Of a stretch of 64,000 nucleotides of DNA, positions 23,631 through 52,627 are shown piece after piece. Both the position numbers and the translations under genes were made by a program. Position 1 is the stretch's first letter. Each line of letters opens with the position of its first letter. The notes beneath the pieces are model-generated. The model made no database searches and was not told where the DNA came from. It worked only from the letters and a program-made list of their open reading frames with translations. Source of the DNA: Dehalococcoidia bacterium (GTDB taxonomy: Bacteria; Chloroflexota; Dehalococcoidia; GIF9; AB-539-J10); contig JAFGFT010000072.1 in NCBI GenBank assembly GCA_016930935.1, positions 1 through 64,000 of the forward strand, in the 5' to 3' direction.

Positions 23631-24803
23631 ATGAAGCTGCTGGTGATAGGCTTGGGACAATGTGGTGGGCGGATTGCGGATAGATTCGCCCGCTTGAACA
23701 AGAGAGGACATGCGCTCCGTGGAATGGATACCCTTGCCGGAGTGTTTGCAATCAACACAGATGTGACGGACCTCAGTGGTCTGCGGACCATCAAGCCTGA
23801 TTACAGGCACCGCATTCTGATTGGCGCTCAGCGCACGAACGGTCACGGTGTGGGCAAGATCAGCGAGTTGGGAGCAGAGATAGCGAACGAGGATGTCGAC
23901 AAAGTAATCGATGCCATTCGTTCCGCTCCGGGCTTCTATGAAACGGATGCGTTCCTGCTCTGCGCCGGTGCTGCCGGCGGTACTGGTTCGGGTTCAATCG
24001 GCGTGTTGACGAAGCATCTCAAGGAGCGATACATCGGGAAGCCGGTGTACAACGTTGTGGTGCTGCCTTTCCGTCAGGAAGAGACGACCGAAACGAGGAC
24101 TATCTACAATACGGCGACATGTCTGAAGTCGACGTATCTTGTTGCTGATGCCGTGTTCCTGATTGATAATCAGCGCTATGTGAGGAAGGACGCCCCTGCT
24201 CAGAACAACCTCAACACAATCAATGCGAAGGTGGCTGAACCCTTCTATAATGTGTTGTGCGCAGGGGAGGAAACCAACCAACAGTTCGTTGGAGCGAAGA
24301 CACTTGATGCCGGAGACATCATTCAGACTCTGGCAGGGTGGACGGTCATTGGTGGTGGCATGTCACGCTTGGAGCGGAGACTGCCTTTCTGCGGTCCAAA
24401 ACGCGATTTCCGTGACAAGATGATGGAGACGAGTCGGGCTTCGCACGCCATGGACCAGGCCATTAGTGAACTGTCCATGACTATAGACCCGACGGATGCA
24501 GGAAGGGCGCTCTATCTGCTGACGGCTCCTGCTCGTGAGATGAGCATGGATGTCATGAAGCAGTTGGGTGACAACCTGAAGAACCTTGCACCAAACGCAC
24601 TCATCCGTAGCGGTGACTACCCTCGTGACAGCAAGCAGGTTGATGTGACGCTCGTGATGTCGGAGATTGGCAATGTGCGGAAGATAACCGACTACTTCAC
24701 CAAGGCAATCGACCTTATCTCTGTCATGAAGGCGAAGCGTGGACTTGGCTACCAGTCGAGGAAACTCGAAGAGTCATTCGACGAGATTCCTGTACTACTG
24801 TAG
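23631..24803 (+). CDS. CetZ-like tubulin-superfamily GTPase
   Basis: 390 residues. The N-terminal GTPase domain begins LLVIGLGQCGGRIAD (nucleotide-binding glycine loop), with FAINTD near 40, the ILIGAQRTNGHGVG segment at 62-75 followed by ELGAE, and the tubulin signature GGTGSGS at 116-122. The GHGVG...ELGAE segment matches archaeal CetZ proteins better than FtsZ. The FtsZ C-terminal conserved peptide (such as DVPSFLRR) is absent; the tail ends EESFDEIPVLL. A normal ftsZ exists at 49 kb, so this is a second tubulin homologue. CetZ proteins act in cell shape in archaea. Two coiled-coil rod proteins face it from the opposite strand. Confidence 0.88.
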   Translation: MKLLVIGLGQCGGRIADRFARLNKRGHALRGMDTLAGVFAINTDVTDLSGLRTIKPDYRHRILIGAQRTNGHGVGKISELGAEIANEDVDKVIDAIRSAPGFYETDAFLLCAGAAGGTGSGSIGVLTKHLKERYIGKPVYNVVVLPFRQEETTETRTIYNTATCLKSTYLVADAVFLIDNQRYVRKDAPAQNNLNTINAKVAEPFYNVLCAGEETNQQFVGAKTLDAGDIIQTLAGWTVIGGGMSRLERRLPFCGPKRDFRDKMMETSRASHAMDQAISELSMTIDPTDAGRALYLLTAPAREMSMDVMKQLGDNLKNLAPNALIRSGDYPRDSKQVDVTLVMSEIGNVRKITDYFTKAIDLISVMKAKRGLGYQSRKLEESFDEIPVLL

Positions 24804-24828: not shown

Positions 24829-24863
24829 AGCTGCCCCCTGCTTTTTGGAAGCAAGGGGCAGCT
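24829..24863. terminator. Hairpin terminator between the tubulin and rod-protein genes
   Basis: AGCTGCCCCCTGC pairs with GCAAGGGGCAGCT across a 9-base loop, 12 of 13 pairs formed. It sits 26 bases after the tubulin stop and 40 bases after the stop of the opposing gene, so it may serve both strands. A short CTTTG follows on the plus strand, and no long T-run is present on either side. Confidence 0.75.
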
Positions 24864-24902: not shown

Positions 24903-25448
24903 TTATCTGCGGGCCTTGGTGAAGACCGTCCACGTGCGGGCCATCGCCTCCGCATGGGCAACCCTGGCCTTCTTCTCGGCTTCGTCTCTTTCCTTCAGCG
25001 CTTGTGTGGAGGCTTCATCAAAGGACTTCTTCGCTGAAACCACGCTGTCTTCGTGCGCCTTGCGCAGTTGAGCGAGGCTTTCCTCGAAGACGCGCTGACT
25101 CTGCGCGGTGCCGTCGTCAAGGGCTTTCTTCGCCTGCGCGATAGTGGTGTCGTAATGCTTCCTTGCCTGAGCTATCGCATCGACGGAGGCATGGCGGGCA
25201 CGGTCGAGGGAATCAGAGTAGGCCTTCTCTGCCTTGTGTTCCTGGTCCTTGTAGGCGTTCTCAAGTTGGCGTTCCGCTTCAACATACGCAACGTACGCGG
25301 CAACCGCGCGTTGTTGAGTCTCATCCAGAAAATCCATGGTTGGCTCGGCCGGTTTCGCAGCCTGCGTTGTGTTGTTGGCCTGTGCGGTGTCATCAGCCTG
25401 CGTTGTGGTCTCTTTCTGCTTGACCGGTGCTTCTTCCACGTTTGCCAT
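24903..25448 (-). CDS. Rod-like protein of eleven consecutive 11-residue repeats
   Basis: 181 residues, not assigned to a known family. Residues 1-38 are a polar Thr/Gln/Ala-rich low-complexity tail. From Tyr55 to Val175 the sequence divides without gaps into eleven hendecads. Position 1 is often aromatic (Y55, Y66, Y77, Y99, F121, F143), position 3 is nearly always Asp or Glu, position 8 is mostly Ala, and positions 9-10 are often basic. It should form a continuous, slightly right-handed amphipathic helix or coiled coil. No signal peptide or membrane segment. The start at 25448 has AAAGGAGGG eight bases upstream. It lies 96 bases after the longer repeat protein, probably in the same transcript, and faces the CetZ-like gene. 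Confidence 0.8.
   Translation of the reverse strand: MANVEEAPVKQKETTTQADDTAQANNTTQAAKPAEPTMDFLDETQQRAVAAYVAYVEAERQLENAYKDQEHKAEKAYSDSLDRARHASVDAIAQARKHYDTTIAQAKKALDDGTAQSQRVFEESLAQLRKAHEDSVVSAKKSFDEASTQALKERDEAEKKARVAHAEAMARTWTVFTKARR
24924..25286 (-). repeat. Protein-level 11-residue tandem repeats (11 units)
   Basis: Codons 55-175 of the 181-residue rod protein encode eleven gapless hendecads. Units begin at residues 55, 66, 77, 88, 99, 110, 121, 132, 143, 154 and 165. An acidic residue is at unit position 3 in ten of eleven. The DNA copies are diverged, so the periodicity is selected at protein level. Confidence 0.8.
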
Positions 25449-25544: not shown

Positions 25545-27116
25545 CTAATCATAGTCGTCGTCTTTCTGGGCTTCAAGGGGTTTGTCTTTGTCCGTTGCGT
25601 ACATCTTGGCCAGGAATTTGAGCCTCGATTCTATGTCCCTCTTGGGCTCACGGGACCGGAGAGGTTGTCTTGACTCGTCCAGATCGACGCGGCTGAGAGC
25701 ATCTTCAAAGAGCTGTGAGGAAGGGGTTTCAAGCGGTTCCGGAGCCTCCTGGCTTAGCTTCTCTGCTCCTGCGACCGCATCCTCAAAAATACGTGCGGAG
25801 GCGCGCACTGCTTTGCGCGCGGCCTTGTTCGTCTCTTCAGCCTTCCTGAGTGCTTCCTGTAGAATCTTCACGGATGCGACGACCGTGTCTCGTGCGGCCG
25901 TAACGGACGACTCCGTGGCTTCCCTGACGACTCGTTTGGACTCTTCCGCCACTCGCACTGTCTCACGTTCGGTCTGCTCTGAGCGGCGAATCGCCTCGGC
26001 TGCCAGTCTCTGGGCCTCCTCCGCGGCTTCGGTCGCGAGCTTTCCAATCTCCTCCGTGCGGCTGGATGCCTCCTCCGTAGCTTTCATGGCATCCTCGGCC
26101 AGCCGCGTTGCGGCGGAACTGACCTGTTCGGTTCTTCTTATTGCCTCGCGTGATGCGCGTTCGGCTTCCTCTGCCTTGCCCATTGCTTCCTGAGAGGCGC
26201 GGGTGGCCGATTCTATTGCTTCGTTGCTCTCCCTCACGGAAGCCTCAATTCGAGCGAGCGCTTCCTGAGAGGCCCTGATTTGCTTGTTTGCCTCTCGCTG
26301 GCTGAGCTTGCCTGCCTCATCTGCACGCCGCAGTGCTGCTTCAAAAGCGCGGTTTGACTGCTCTGATGCTGCGTTGGATGCCGCGATGGCTTCCTCGGCG
26401 CGTGCGCGCGCCTCCTCAAATGCGGCTGAGGAAAGTGCGGCTGAATCGGAGGCTGATTGAAAGACTCGCTCGGCGCGGGCCACCGCTTTCTCTGATGCTT
26501 TCTGCGCGTCTCTTGATGCCTTCTCAGAGGAGCGCGCTACACGCTCCGCAGCGTTCTGTGCCTCTTGTGATGCTCTGACGGACTCTTCGGCGGCACGTAT
26601 CGCCTGGTCGCGTTGACTCTCTGCTTGAATCACGGATTGACGGGATGCCTGGCGGGCTTCTTCGGCTTTCTGCTGCGCTGCCTGTGCAGTCTTCTCCACC
26701 TGGGTGAAGAGTCTCTGTGAAGAACTGAGGGATTCCTCCACCGACTTGACCGCTTGGTTCACGAGTTGCTCAAGCCGTGCAACTGACTCATGAAATGACC
26801 GTGCGTTGTTCTGCGCGGCGGCGGTTGATGATTGGAGAGCAGCCTCGGCAGTATCGATGGCTGATTGGGCCATGCCTGTCGTCTTCTCGGAAGACTGTGC
26901 GGCCTTGTGGCTTAGCTGAGACGCCCTTTCCACTGCTTCTTCGGCTAGCCTTCTTGCCTCATCCGCAGAAGCACTTGCCTCGCGCCCGATGTTCTCAAGG
27001 CGCGTGATGGCGTTCTCTGATGCCTTGCGTGACTGTTCTGCTGCATGTCGCGCAGCCAGGTTCATCTGCTCGGCTCGTGCCACAGCCTCTTGGAAGGAAG
27101 GTGACTCGTTGTCCAT
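25545..27116 (-). CDS. Long alanine-rich rod protein with sixteen gapless 25-residue repeats
   Basis: 523 residues, unassigned. Residues 11-410 divide into sixteen 25-residue units with no gaps. Unit position 1 is Ala in thirteen of sixteen, position 6 is Glu or Asp in fifteen, position 4 is often Arg, and several units end RASQE. After residue 410 the phase shifts by 11, and two more units begin at 422 and 447. A 25-residue period equals two heptads plus one hendecad (7 turns), predicting a nearly straight coiled coil about 60 nm long if fully helical. The last 65 residues are non-repetitive, basic then acidic, with no membrane anchor. It is upstream of the hendecad protein and near the CetZ-like gene, so a cytoskeletal or chromosome-organising role is possible but unproven. 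Confidence 0.85.
   Translation of the reverse strand: MDNESPSFQEAVARAEQMNLAARHAAEQSRKASENAITRLENIGREASASADEARRLAEEAVERASQLSHKAAQSSEKTTGMAQSAIDTAEAALQSSTAAAQNNARSFHESVARLEQLVNQAVKSVEESLSSSQRLFTQVEKTAQAAQQKAEEARQASRQSVIQAESQRDQAIRAAEESVRASQEAQNAAERVARSSEKASRDAQKASEKAVARAERVFQSASDSAALSSAAFEEARARAEEAIAASNAASEQSNRAFEAALRRADEAGKLSQREANKQIRASQEALARIEASVRESNEAIESATRASQEAMGKAEEAERASREAIRRTEQVSSAATRLAEDAMKATEEASSRTEEIGKLATEAAEEAQRLAAEAIRRSEQTERETVRVAEESKRVVREATESSVTAARDTVVASVKILQEALRKAEETNKAARKAVRASARIFEDAVAGAEKLSQEAPEPLETPSSQLFEDALSRVDLDESRQPLRSREPKRDIESRLKFLAKMYATDKDKPLEAQKDDDYD
25887..27086 (-). repeat. Protein-level 25-residue tandem repeats (16 units)
   Basis: Codons 11-410 of the 523-residue rod protein. 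Units start at residues 11, 36, 61, 86 and so on to 386 in exact steps of 25 (75 bases). The anchor pattern is A-[VIL]-x-R-x-E at unit positions 1-6; only unit 3 has Ser in place of the acidic residue. The nucleotide copies are diverged. Confidence 0.85.
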
Positions 27117-27180: not shown

Positions 27181-27209
27181 ATTGTAGTAGTGCAGTTCTC
27201 TATTTTCAA
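27181..27209 (-). promoter_or_regulatory. Promoter of the rod-protein genes
   Basis: On the minus strand TTGAAA (27204-27209) and TACAAT (27181-27186) are 17 bases apart. The -35 overlaps the last bases of the upstream nitrilase-family gene. The predicted start site near 27174 gives a leader of about 58 bases. Confidence 0.65.
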
Positions 27210-48877: not shown

Positions 48878-50002
48878 CTATTGCCAGGAAAGCCGTGAAG
48901 GCTCGGGTTTCACATCTCCCCTCATAGCCTGTGTCAGTTGACCACTGCTGTGGTGCTGGCCGCGGCGCAGGAAGGAAGGTACATCGAGACTCTCGCCACC
49001 ACCCTTCATCAGCCGGCGCAGTTCCTCGGTGTCGGGTGAGCCCTTGCCGTACTGGCTCGTGAAGCCTGTCGCGATGACGGTTATCTTGATGTCCGCATCC
49101 ATCTTCGGGTCGAACACAACGCCGAAAATGATGTTGGCCCGTGGGTCAACCGCATCACTGATGACACTGGCTGCCTCGTTGCACTCGAAGAGCGTCAAAC
49201 TGGGTCCGCCGGTGATGTTGAACAGCACGCCCTTGGCTCCGGTAACCTGCGCGTCCAGAAGAGGACTGGCGAGTGCAGCCTTTGCCGCGTCGACTGCCCT
49301 GTTCTGGCCGGTGCCTCGTCCTACGGACATCCAGGCGGGGCCTGCGTTCCGCATGACGGATTTGATGTCTGCGAAGTCAAGGTTGATGAGGCCAGGGACT
49401 GTGACGACTTCGGAGATTGCCTGGACACCAAGGAGAAGGGCGTCGTCAGCCATCCTGAAAGCCGAGTCTACAGTGGTCTTGTTGTCACAGAGCTGAAGGA
49501 GTCTGTCATTCGGGATAATGATGAGTGTGTCTACCTTATCGGTTAGGTTGAGAATACCCTCTTCAGCTACCTCTGAGCGGTGTCCACCCTCGAATTTGAA
49601 GGGCTTGGTGACCACGCCGATGGTGAGAGCTCCAGACTCTTTGGCAATCTCAGCGACCACGGGGATGCCGCCGGTTCCGGTGCCGCCACCCATACCTGCG
49701 GCGACGAAAACCATGTCGGCTCCCTCTACGACTTCCTGAATCGTCTGTTTGCTCTCTTCTGCGGCTTTGCCACCTACTCTGTGGTCACCGCCGGCGCCAA
49801 GGCCGCGGGTGAGTTTCTCACCGAGCTGGACGCGGGTCGAAGCCTCGGCCAGTGCGAGAGCCTGGGCATCAGTGTTCATGACGATGAACTCGACGCCTCT
49901 GATATCCTCTCGGATCATTCGATTGATTGCGTTGGTGCCACCGCCCCCGATGCCGATCGCCTTGATCCTTGCCGGAGCGGGTGTATAAGTTGTCTTAGCC
50001 AT
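48878..50002 (-). CDS. ftsZ: Cell division protein FtsZ
   Basis: 374 residues. [15 protein letters not shown] (15-30) and the tubulin signature [11 protein letters not shown] near 110 bind GTP, and the T7 loop is intact ([12 protein letters not shown]). After a linker, the C-terminal conserved peptide DVPSFLRR is present at about 338-345, followed by about 24 further residues. It forms the division ring. It is 41 bases downstream of ftsA. Confidence 0.97.
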
Positions 50003-50043
50003 TTCTACCTCCTAAGTCTTTGCAACTTGTCGCCACTCTGCAG

Positions 50044-51270
50044 CTATCCATGGAAGAGCTTTCGCAACATTCGGGAAATACCGCCGAACATGCTGGTGCG
50101 CTTGCTCTGCCATGCGGAAGGCTCTCGGTTGCGTGCCTGCCACAGAATGAGTCCCAGCGTTGTCGCGTAAGCAGAGTCACGCAGGATGTCAGTGATTCCA
50201 TAGACGCCACTGCCAAGTGGCGCGCCCTTCCGAACGGGCATCTTGAGTTGGCCCTTGCCCAACTCAACCAATCCATCGAGGTTGGCTGTACCACCGGTGA
50301 GAACTAGCCCGCAGGGTGCGAGTCTCTGGTAGTCGGTGGTCGGCAGCTCCAGGAGAATCAACTCGTAGAGTTCCTCCATTCTTGAACGAACGATGTCGCA
50401 GAGTTCTCTGTACGAACCGGCGTGGCCGTTTTCAATGCCCGTCAGTTCTGTCTCTCTGCCGGTGTCAAGACCGGGAGTCACGTTGCCGTAGGTCTTCTTC
50501 ATTCGCTCCGCTACGTGGAACGGAAGGCCAAGGCCTATGGCGATGTCACTTGTTATCTGGTAGCCGGCGACCGGTATGATGGCTGTGTGGTAGATATCGC
50601 CATCCTTGAAGACGGCGATGTCTGTGGTGCCACCTCCGAGGTCGGCCATGATGATGCCGCTCTCGCGCTCTTGTGGGGTGAGGACTGCCTCGCCACTGGC
50701 CAGAGGCTCAAGGACCAGGTCTTCAACCTGTACCCCTATGCTTCTGATGACCTTCACCAGATTCTGGACTGAGGACACTGAGGCTGTGATGATGTGCGTC
50801 TCAACGTCGAGTCGCGTGCCGTGCATCCCCACGGGTTGCTTGACGCGCTCTTCTCCGTCGAGTGTGTAGTAGCGCGGGATTGCATGCAACAGCTTCTTGC
50901 CCTCAGGCACTGTCACACTCTTGGAGGCAGCAAGGACTCTTCGCAGGTCATCGGAACGAACGAGACGGTCGGCTCGTGGTATCGCTACCACTCCCTTGTT
51001 GTTAATGCTACTGATGTGTCGCCCAGTCACTCCGACGAATACCGAGTCGACGCGCGTCCCACTAATCTTCTGCGCTTCCTGGATCGACGTGGCGATTGCT
51101 TCCTTCGCCTCATCCATGTTGACGACGATTCCCTTGTGCAGCCCATGACTGGGCACAACGCCAACACCAAGAATCTCGATGTCGTCCTGACTCCTGACAT
51201 TCGCCACGATAGTGGCTATCTTTGTGGTTCCCACATCAATAGCGGAAATGATCCCTTTGGTCATTTTCAC
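50044..51270 (-). CDS. ftsA: Cell division protein FtsA
   Basis: 408 residues of the actin/Hsp70 fold. IISAIDVGTTKIATIV (8-23) is the phosphate 1 motif, IMADLGGGTTDIAVF near 205 the phosphate 2 motif, and VLTGGTANLDGL near 335 the adenosine motif. A C-terminal amphipathic helix (ISRMLRKLFHG) should anchor it to the membrane. It tethers FtsZ. It lies 38 bases after rsmH with no ftsL, ftsI or mur genes between, unlike walled bacteria. Confidence 0.96.
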   Translation of the reverse strand: MKMTKGIISAIDVGTTKIATIVANVRSQDDIEILGVGVVPSHGLHKGIVVNMDEAKEAIATSIQEAQKISGTRVDSVFVGVTGRHISSINNKGVVAIPRADRLVRSDDLRRVLAASKSVTVPEGKKLLHAIPRYYTLDGEERVKQPVGMHGTRLDVETHIITASVSSVQNLVKVIRSIGVQVEDLVLEPLASGEAVLTPQERESGIIMADLGGGTTDIAVFKDGDIYHTAIIPVAGYQITSDIAIGLGLPFHVAERMKKTYGNVTPGLDTGRETELTGIENGHAGSYRELCDIVRSRMEELYELILLELPTTDYQRLAPCGLVLTGGTANLDGLVELGKGQLKMPVRKGAPLGSGVYGITDILRDSAYATTLGLILWQARNREPSAWQSKRTSMFGGISRMLRKLFHG

Positions 51271-51308
51271 CTCCTAAGATTATGGTCGTCACTCGAACGC
51301 ACGTGTTC

Positions 51309-52205
51309 TCACGCGATACGTTCAGCAACTCGGAGTCGCGCACTGCGACTGCGTGGATTGGAGTGACTCTCCAACGTAGTAGGTCGGATGACCTTCTTCG
51401 TAATGAGCGCGAAGGCGTTGTCGGCGGCCTTCCCGCGCATGAACTGCTTCACGATGCGGTCTTCCAGAGAATGGTAGCTGAGCACAACCAGTCTGCCCTG
51501 TGAGCGTAGAAGGCTCACAGTCTGGTCTAGTCCCAGCGCAAGACTCTCGAGTTCCTTGTTGACCGCAATGCGAAGAGCCATGAATGTGCGGGTCGCAGGG
51601 TGGATTCTTCCACGCCTGTTCCCGAGGACCTGCTGCACCAGGTGCGCAAGTCGTAATGTGGACAGGATTGGCCGGTTCTGGACAATCCTGTGCGCGATTT
51701 GTCGAGAGTACCGTTCTTCACCGTACTCCCAGAGGATGCGAGCTATCTCTTGCTCGCTATAGCTATTGACGATGTCTGCAGCGCTCACCCCTTCATTTGT
51801 GTCAAAACGCATGTCGAGTGGAGCTTCACGCTGGAAGCTGAAACCGCGGTCCGCGGAATCCAGCTGCATCGAGGATATCCCGAGGTCGAAAAATATGCCG
51901 TCGGTTGAGTTGAAGCCCTTCTCGCGGCAGATTTCTCCGAGATGGGAGAAATTGCCCTGTGCGGCGGTGAAGGACTCACCGAATTCTGAGAGTGTCTTCT
52001 GTGCCAGTTCAATGGCCGAGGAGTCTGCGTCTATGCCGAGGAGGCGGCCCGATGGCTGAATCCGCTCAAGTATGGCACGAGAGTGTCCGCCTGCCCCCAA
52101 TGTGCAATCAACGTACGTGCCGCCCGGATGAGTCCGCAATCCTTCCATAACCTCAGTCACCATTACGGGGACATGGGGGGCCAGCGACTCTGTGTCGTTG
52201 CTCAA
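51309..52205 (-). CDS. rsmH: 16S rRNA (cytosine-1402 N4) methyltransferase
   Basis: About 298 residues. HVPVMVTEVMEGL starts the domain, DCTLGAGGHSRAIL is the SAM site, and RGFSFQREAPLDMRFD is the family signature near 125. The frame is open to 52271. The TTG at 52205 is preferred because it overlaps the mraZ stop as TTGA and has GGGAGGA just upstream. It methylates C1402 of 16S rRNA. Confidence 0.95.
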   Translation of the reverse strand: MSNDTESLAPHVPVMVTEVMEGLRTHPGGTYVDCTLGAGGHSRAILERIQPSGRLLGIDADSSAIELAQKTLSEFGESFTAAQGNFSHLGEICREKGFNSTDGIFFDLGISSMQLDSADRGFSFQREAPLDMRFDTNEGVSAADIVNSYSEQEIARILWEYGEERYSRQIAHRIVQNRPILSTLRLAHLVQQVLGNRRGRIHPATRTFMALRIAVNKELESLALGLDQTVSLLRSQGRLVVLSYHSLEDRIVKQFMRGKAADNAFALITKKVIRPTTLESHSNPRSRSARLRVAERIA

Positions 52206-52627
52206 CTTCCTCCCAGGCCTTCCAGTATCTGTTCCGCCTGTTCTTCGGAAGCAGACTTTTCTGCCTTCCAAAGGTCTTCATTCCAGAGTTCTACGGATTG
52301 GTTCACTCCTACGACAACAACGCTCTCCCCGATCTCTGCATGCAGGCGCAGGGGTAGCGGTAGCGCTATTCTTCCTTGCTTGTCGAATGCAGCCGAAAAC
52401 GCCGTTCCGAACACGGCTCTGTTGAGCTTGCGCTGACTCGTCGATGTCACGGCTTTGGCTGCCAGTTCATCTGCGAGTCGCTTCCATTCTGCGAGGGGAT
52501 ACACCCTGATACATTTCTCCGAGCCCTTCGTCAGCACGACGGTATCTCGCATGTCCCGGCGGAACTTGGGAGGTAGAGGCACTCTTCCTTTGTCGTCTAG
52601 TTTGTAGACATGCTCTCCAAAGAACAT
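52202..52627 (-). CDS. mraZ: Transcriptional regulator MraZ
   Basis: 141 residues with two SpoVT/AbrB-like repeats: [19 protein letters not shown] near the start, and [21 protein letters not shown] in the second half. MraZ regulates the division cluster by binding short repeats near its own start; such repeats are present upstream. It heads mraZ-rsmH-ftsA-ftsZ. Confidence 0.96.

Follow-up and report, generated by a model that had tools for sequence, protein, structure and literature searches.

The protein CC, encoded on the minus strand of the window (the whole stretch of 64,000 nucleotides that was analysed), is probably a dedicated long-rod partner of the CetZ-type tubulin homologue CetZ-A in Dehalococcoidia that lack peptidoglycan, a reading to which we assign a probability of about 0.6. 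We infer binding and function from a linked trio of genes, from a single CetZ clade tied to the coils, from a C-terminal motif present in CetZ-linked coils only, and from the near confinement of CetZ to genomes without transpeptidase. As far as can be judged from sequence, the pairing of rod and CetZ points to a previously undescribed part of an internal skeleton; a search limited to the open-access literature retrieved no description of the module formed by CC, the small rod protein SM and CetZ-A. The features of the locus are as follows.

25545..27116, minus strand: CC, long rod protein, 523 aa (open reading frame)
26187..27086, minus strand: CC residues 11-310, 12 gapless 25-residue units (profile and unit scoring)
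26145..26186, minus strand: CC residues 311-324, 14-residue stub resulting from an 11-residue skip (profile and unit scoring)
25920..26144, minus strand: CC residues 325-399, three units in shifted register (unit scoring)
25854..25919, minus strand: CC residues 400-421, irregular, 22 residues (profile and unit scoring)
25779..25853, minus strand: CC residues 422-446, final unit, 31 bits (unit scoring)
25599..25625, minus strand: CC residues 498-506, C-terminal motif RLxFLxxMY, followed by a charged tail (alignment with relatives)
27181..27209, minus strand: promoter-like site 5' of CC, 10 of 12 consensus positions (consensus match only)
24903..25448, minus strand: SM, small rod protein with 11-residue repeats, 181 aa from the ATG common to relatives; open frame from 25511 (repeat analysis, relatives)
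23631..24803, plus strand: CetZ-A, CetZ-type tubulin homologue, 390 aa, convergent to SM and CC (Pfam Tubulin and CetZ_C)
24838..24861, plus strand: terminator-like hairpin 3' of CetZ-A (such sites are no more numerous than in shuffles)

A preliminary description of this DNA had proposed a 25-residue period in CC and had suggested shuffle and Fourier checks, both of which were run; the period is real. When the autocorrelation of residue identity (residues 11-435) was compared with 1000 composition shuffles, in which the maximum z at any lag from 3 to 109 was 4.8, lag 25 ranked first with z = 9.6, followed by lags 50 and 100. The Fourier maximum of the hydrophobic signal lies at 3.568 residues (times 25 = 7.01), i.e., at 25/7, and the acidic, basic and alanine signals likewise peak there.

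The stretch previously read as sixteen gapless units (25887-27086) corresponds to CC residues 11-410. Unit position 6 is indeed acidic in 15 of these 16 units, but the strict pattern A-[VIL]-x-R-x-E, which had been ascribed to every unit, fits only four of them. Phase breaks were mapped with a 25-state circular profile trained on CC and 20 relatives, which placed a skip of 11 residues at about residue 317 and a second break at about residue 402. In the earlier register, the units at residues 336 and 361 fail with -18 and -5 bits; the shifted units at residues 325, 350, 375 and 422 fit, reaching 24, 27, 20 and 31 bits. The gapless run is therefore 12 units long. The actual layout is 12 units, a 14-residue stub, three units, a 22-residue gap and one unit, and that 12, 3 and 1 also sum to 16 is a coincidence. 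The skip is common to 11 of the 20 relatives and other breaks occur in four; the remaining five (L067, L068, L073, L074 and L075) lack the skip and have the 11 residues in place.

A harder null was obtained by shuffling residues only within chemical classes (2000 shuffles). Here, the lag-25 z of CC was 1.4 for residues 11-324 (202 of 2000 shuffles reach the observed value) and 2.8 for residues 11-446 (10 of 2000), while the chemical-class string of CC gave a lag-25 z of 9.4. With the identity signal weak and the class string strong, it is the pattern of charge and hydrophobicity that is kept. The relative from locus L067 retains its identity signal under the same null (z 11.0). At the DNA level, CC has no remaining tandem repeat of unit length. 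Taken as a 25-residue coiled coil, i.e., a protein that combines a significant 25-residue period with a 25/7 hydrophobic repeat, CC shows both features, the former weakly under the class-preserving null.

In an AlphaFold2 single-chain model of low confidence (mean pLDDT 68, pTM 0.37), residues 8-457 of CC are mostly helix, which fits a long, nearly straight helical rod with a predicted length of about 67 nm at 0.15 nm per residue. The long, near-straight coiled coil of the preliminary description thus fits as far as rod geometry goes (25/7 = 3.571 residues per turn; helix in the model). Composition and charge would also allow a stable single alpha-helix or extended spacer instead of a multi-chain coiled coil, since CC is rich in E, R, K and A and five of eight coils (that of the window included) have i to i+4 as their best charge offset. 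We consider this improbable, because the 25/7 hydrophobic seam is coherent over some 400 residues of CC (21 sequences analysed) and so long a coherent seam is unexpected for a single alpha-helix. In most CC copies the acidic and basic residues run almost in antiphase at 25/4, and partly so at 25/3. Charge complementarity of the coils is highest at an offset of 4 and near 25n+4 and 25n-4, a pattern compatible with i to i+4 salt bridges as well as with staggered rod packing. Such an alanine-rich rod with charge bands and staggered maxima could also be an independent scaffold resembling intermediate filaments (FilP, Scy or crescentin type) that merely shares the cetZ locus. This is unlikely, given that the coils are tied to a single CetZ clade in 14 families, amid flanking genes that vary, and that a C-terminal motif is found in linked coils only; both points are detailed below.

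Within the genus the length of CC is nearly constant (520-530 aa in seven of seven copies, including that of the window), but full-length CetZ-linked coils across the class range from 425 to 910 aa (e.g., 445 and 758 aa in genomes G176 and G200). Lag-25 z values lie between 4 and 17 in most coils of the class and amount to 2.6, 3.4 and 3.2 in three Dehalococcoides-like copies, whose hydrophobic period is 3.58-3.59. The weak lag 25 in these copies and the variable lengths indicate that the coils generally keep the helical phase but not always the strict 25-residue unit; the conserved features of CC are the helical phase and the C-terminal motif, without a fixed length. Strict length had previously been taken to imply contacts along a filament. 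The filament context gains support from the linked CetZ, but the strictness does not hold in general, given relatives of 425-910 residues and the weak identity signal in the Dehalococcoides-like copies. A fixed-length ruler is ruled out class-wide by the same range of lengths, and it is very improbable that the 25-residue unit is matched to a filament lattice, as the earlier proposal would have it: despite the near-fixed length in the genus, the 25-residue identity signal decays elsewhere, and a rise of about 3.7 nm per 25 residues disagrees with the subunit repeat of about 4.3 nm in CetZ and FtsZ. In the CC alignment, 15 of 19 gap runs (a raw count of overlapping runs) measure 4, 7, 11, 14, 25 or 50 residues and the other four (5, 28, 31 and 56 residues) fall outside simple helical steps; the family thus illustrates how a coiled coil grows and shrinks with its helical phase kept. 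The dN/dS of CC is 0.06-0.47 (five pairs with finite dS). Neither CC nor SM has a Pfam match, and the seven matches of CC to solved structures up to E 1 (best 0.004) are nearly all designed helical proteins and uninformative. A further coil of 1613 aa (L132:3873-8714, family f14) has strong 25- and 50-residue lags, no CetZ neighbour and no C-terminal motif.

SM lies downstream of CC on the same strand, and only about 100 bp separate the genes of the trio; as CetZ-A is convergent to CC, the two do not form one operon. SM-type proteins are hendecad proteins, the top lag being 11 or 22 (once 33) in all 22 sequences, and large gaps inside the repeat region of SM measure 11, 33 or 44 residues. Exact 11-residue repeats of this kind resemble the helices of stress-protective or lipid-coating amphipathic proteins (LEA-, phasin- or apolipoprotein-like), and one of 16 CC relatives has a weak Phasin_2 match (1.1e-4); with no such match in the other 15 and with the tight linkage to CetZ, it is distinctly improbable that CC and SM belong there. 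CetZ-A matches Pfam Tubulin (9.7e-32, 111.2 bits, cut-off 33) and CetZ_C (9.6e-14, 51.7 bits, cut-off 21.6). Its best match among solved structures is 4b46_A (9.8e-43), with 4b45 and 3zid also found; these we take to be CetZ1, CetZ2 and a Methanosaeta CetZ. The nucleotide loop GGTGSGS and the T7 acids (LDAGDI) are intact in the alignment, which rules out replaced catalytic acids. CetZ-A does not qualify as FtsZ, with 61.5 bits against a cut-off of 295.2 for the FtsZ equivalog TIGR00065 and FtsZ_C absent from its Pfam matches. For CetZ-A, dN/dS amounts to 0.02-0.04 in all but one of six pairs, the exception being 0.31. A tubulin homologue accompanied by adaptor-like genes also recalls TubZ-like DNA segregation systems, an interpretation we find hardly credible here in the face of the CetZ_C domain, the housekeeping neighbours, the gaps of about 100 bp and the lack of Pfam matches for CC and SM.

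Linkage was followed through the 52 genomes of the family. Relatives of CC occur in 21 of them (source genome included) and CetZ-A, at an identity of at least 59%, in 22 (one match partial); at these thresholds the coil is present in 21 of the 22 genomes with CetZ-A and in none of the other 30, several of which are incomplete and one of which (G003) has a CetZ-A-like fragment of 21 residues. The exception, G015, carries SM and CetZ-A at the start of a contig that begins just before SM. Gene order and convergence are constant in the complete trio loci of the family, and the flanks vary (ten flanking genes scanned at six loci), flanking genes including OAD_beta, TruA-like, phosphoglycerate mutase, DnaJ, chaperonin, SRP54-type GTPase and RmuC.

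Across the class (393 genomes), profile searches returned CC matches in 43 genomes at E 1e-10, some of them false, and CetZ-A matches in 94, so that many CetZ genomes are without a coil match; two coils, those of G148 and G200, escaped the genome search and came to light in loci chosen for their CetZ genes. Neighbourhoods were sampled around the coil matches outside the family and around part of the CetZ matches, and the sample is not random because many loci were chosen for having a coil match. Within it, coil candidates were defined as scoring over 85 bits and having at least 140 aa in loci L066-L105 and L117-L191 (the window being left out). Of these 53 candidates, 47 have a CetZ gene no more than 2 kb away, two (L071, L124) are at contig ends and four (L121, L132, L145, L149) have neither a CetZ neighbour nor the C-terminal motif; the last four are rejected as family members and are still counted in the 53. 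The motif [RK][LM]xxLxx[MT][YF], located 18-38 residues from the C-terminus, is present in 45 of the 47 CetZ-linked coils (with a near match in the other two), in both contig-end coils and in none of the four coils without a CetZ link; it appeared within the last 40 residues in 0 of 4700 shuffles. Its retention in families f16, f63 and f78, where SM was undetected, favours CetZ-A over SM as the target of the motif. In a CetZ tree of 124 rows (FastTree, local support only; CetZ-A of the window is represented by its genus relatives instead of a row of its own), 46 of the 47 convergent coil neighbours group in one clade, which has 50 rows, a local support of 99 and members from 14 families. Its other rows are the one co-directional neighbour, two rows located at contig ends and a third such row, L176_6252; the sole convergent row outside the clade, L117_8247, is a tandem second copy. 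A C-terminal CetZ tail, [DE][IVL]Px[LI], is found in 46 of the 50 coil-clade rows and also in 41 of the 74 others, and is thereby ruled out as a partner-specific mark.

Transpeptidase is encoded in 169 of the 393 class genomes and in one of the 94 with CetZ (G295; lists compared by eye). This mutual exclusion tracks phylogeny, being clustered on the tree, and few events may lie behind the pattern. One study reports that D. mccartyi has no peptidoglycan and places the loss of the dcw genes in the ancestor shared by Dehalococcoidales and the SAR202 cluster (PMC10608941). The source genome (2.38 Mb, 83 contigs, 92% complete), with Dehalococcoidia MAGs as its closest named relatives, has no match to transpeptidase PF00905, which is present in 10 of 14 controls. 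It contains three tubulin-domain genes (FtsZ, CetZ-A and a second CetZ on contig 65) and two MreB-family matches (FtsA and an open frame of 633 aa), and a Mur-ligase-like open frame of 449 aa was also seen. The division genes lie elsewhere in the same window, and within 48878-52271 ftsZ, ftsA and rsmH/mraW are adjacent with no mur genes between them.

48878..50002, minus strand: FtsZ, separate cell-division gene (context)
50044-51270: FtsA, beside FtsZ (context)
51309-52271: RsmH/MraW, beside FtsA (context)

If CC is a dedicated partner of CetZ-A, it would form a near-straight coiled coil with an alanine core, about 65-70 nm long, in which the 25-residue units (7+7+11) would hold the hydrophobic seam in phase. 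The C-terminal motif would dock CetZ-A or a CetZ-A assembly, SM would act as a second adaptor rod, and the two rods together would cross-link, space or anchor CetZ filaments, with the result that cell shape is held or changed. More tentatively, and with doubt prevailing, we envisage that the wall-less members of the class, among them the organohalide respirers Dehalococcoides and Dehalogenimonas, possess a bacterial tubulin cytoskeleton in which the 25-residue-unit rod and the hendecad rod bridge or space CetZ-A filaments, and that this system took over shape control once peptidoglycan and MreB had been lost. The module supplies cultivable species for work on wall-less shape as well as a candidate binding motif, and the trio would, if the partner reading is true, add a bacterial example in which a tubulin homologue has associated rods dedicated to it.

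CetZ-like proteins in Dehalococcoidia have already been published, and in the excerpted text of that publication coiled-coil neighbours are mentioned for archaeal tubulin-like proteins and OdinTubulin and not for Dehalococcoidia (PMC9871819). CetZ-A shares the tubulin GTPase domain and CetZ_C with the archaeal proteins CetZ1 and CetZ2; what differs here is that one bacterial CetZ clade has two candidate dedicated rod partners. In Haloferax, CetZ1 controls shape and cells without it make disks only; this system likewise relies on a tubulin homologue, but no rod partner of the present kind is mentioned in the portion of the report consulted (PMC10869688). The FilP/Scy/DivIVA group comprises long alanine-rich rods with hendecads, as far as the excerpted source describes them (PMC9858780). 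CC is a rod of similar type but differs by its 7+7+11 unit, its link to CetZ and its position outside the Gram-positive division set, and none of 16 CC relatives matched an N-terminal DivIVA domain at E 0.01, which sets them apart from this group.

Several observations concern other CetZ genes. Seven further CetZs lie upstream of a coil, all outside the 50-row clade, and at L118, L119, L122, L123, L127, L129 and L137 the coil has a CetZ on both sides, one upstream and divergent, the other convergent. The second CetZ lineage (L086:5592-8543, on contig 65 of the source genome, G000; also L095 and L097) is paired with a TIG/Ig-domain protein in which a signal peptide and a C-terminal membrane segment were recognised by eye. 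Another CetZ subfamily (L156:2738-8629 and similar loci) is situated between enolase/GAPDH genes and dnaX/ybaB. CetZ paralogues of family f4 (L090, L093, L097, L098, L099, L100, L101 and L103) have a GSLGSGG- or GSVGSGG-like loop in place of GGTGSGS and are perhaps non-hydrolysing partners. Finally, a terminase-like gene (PF17289, 9.8e-6) adjoins a CetZ gene at L097:5790-7151.
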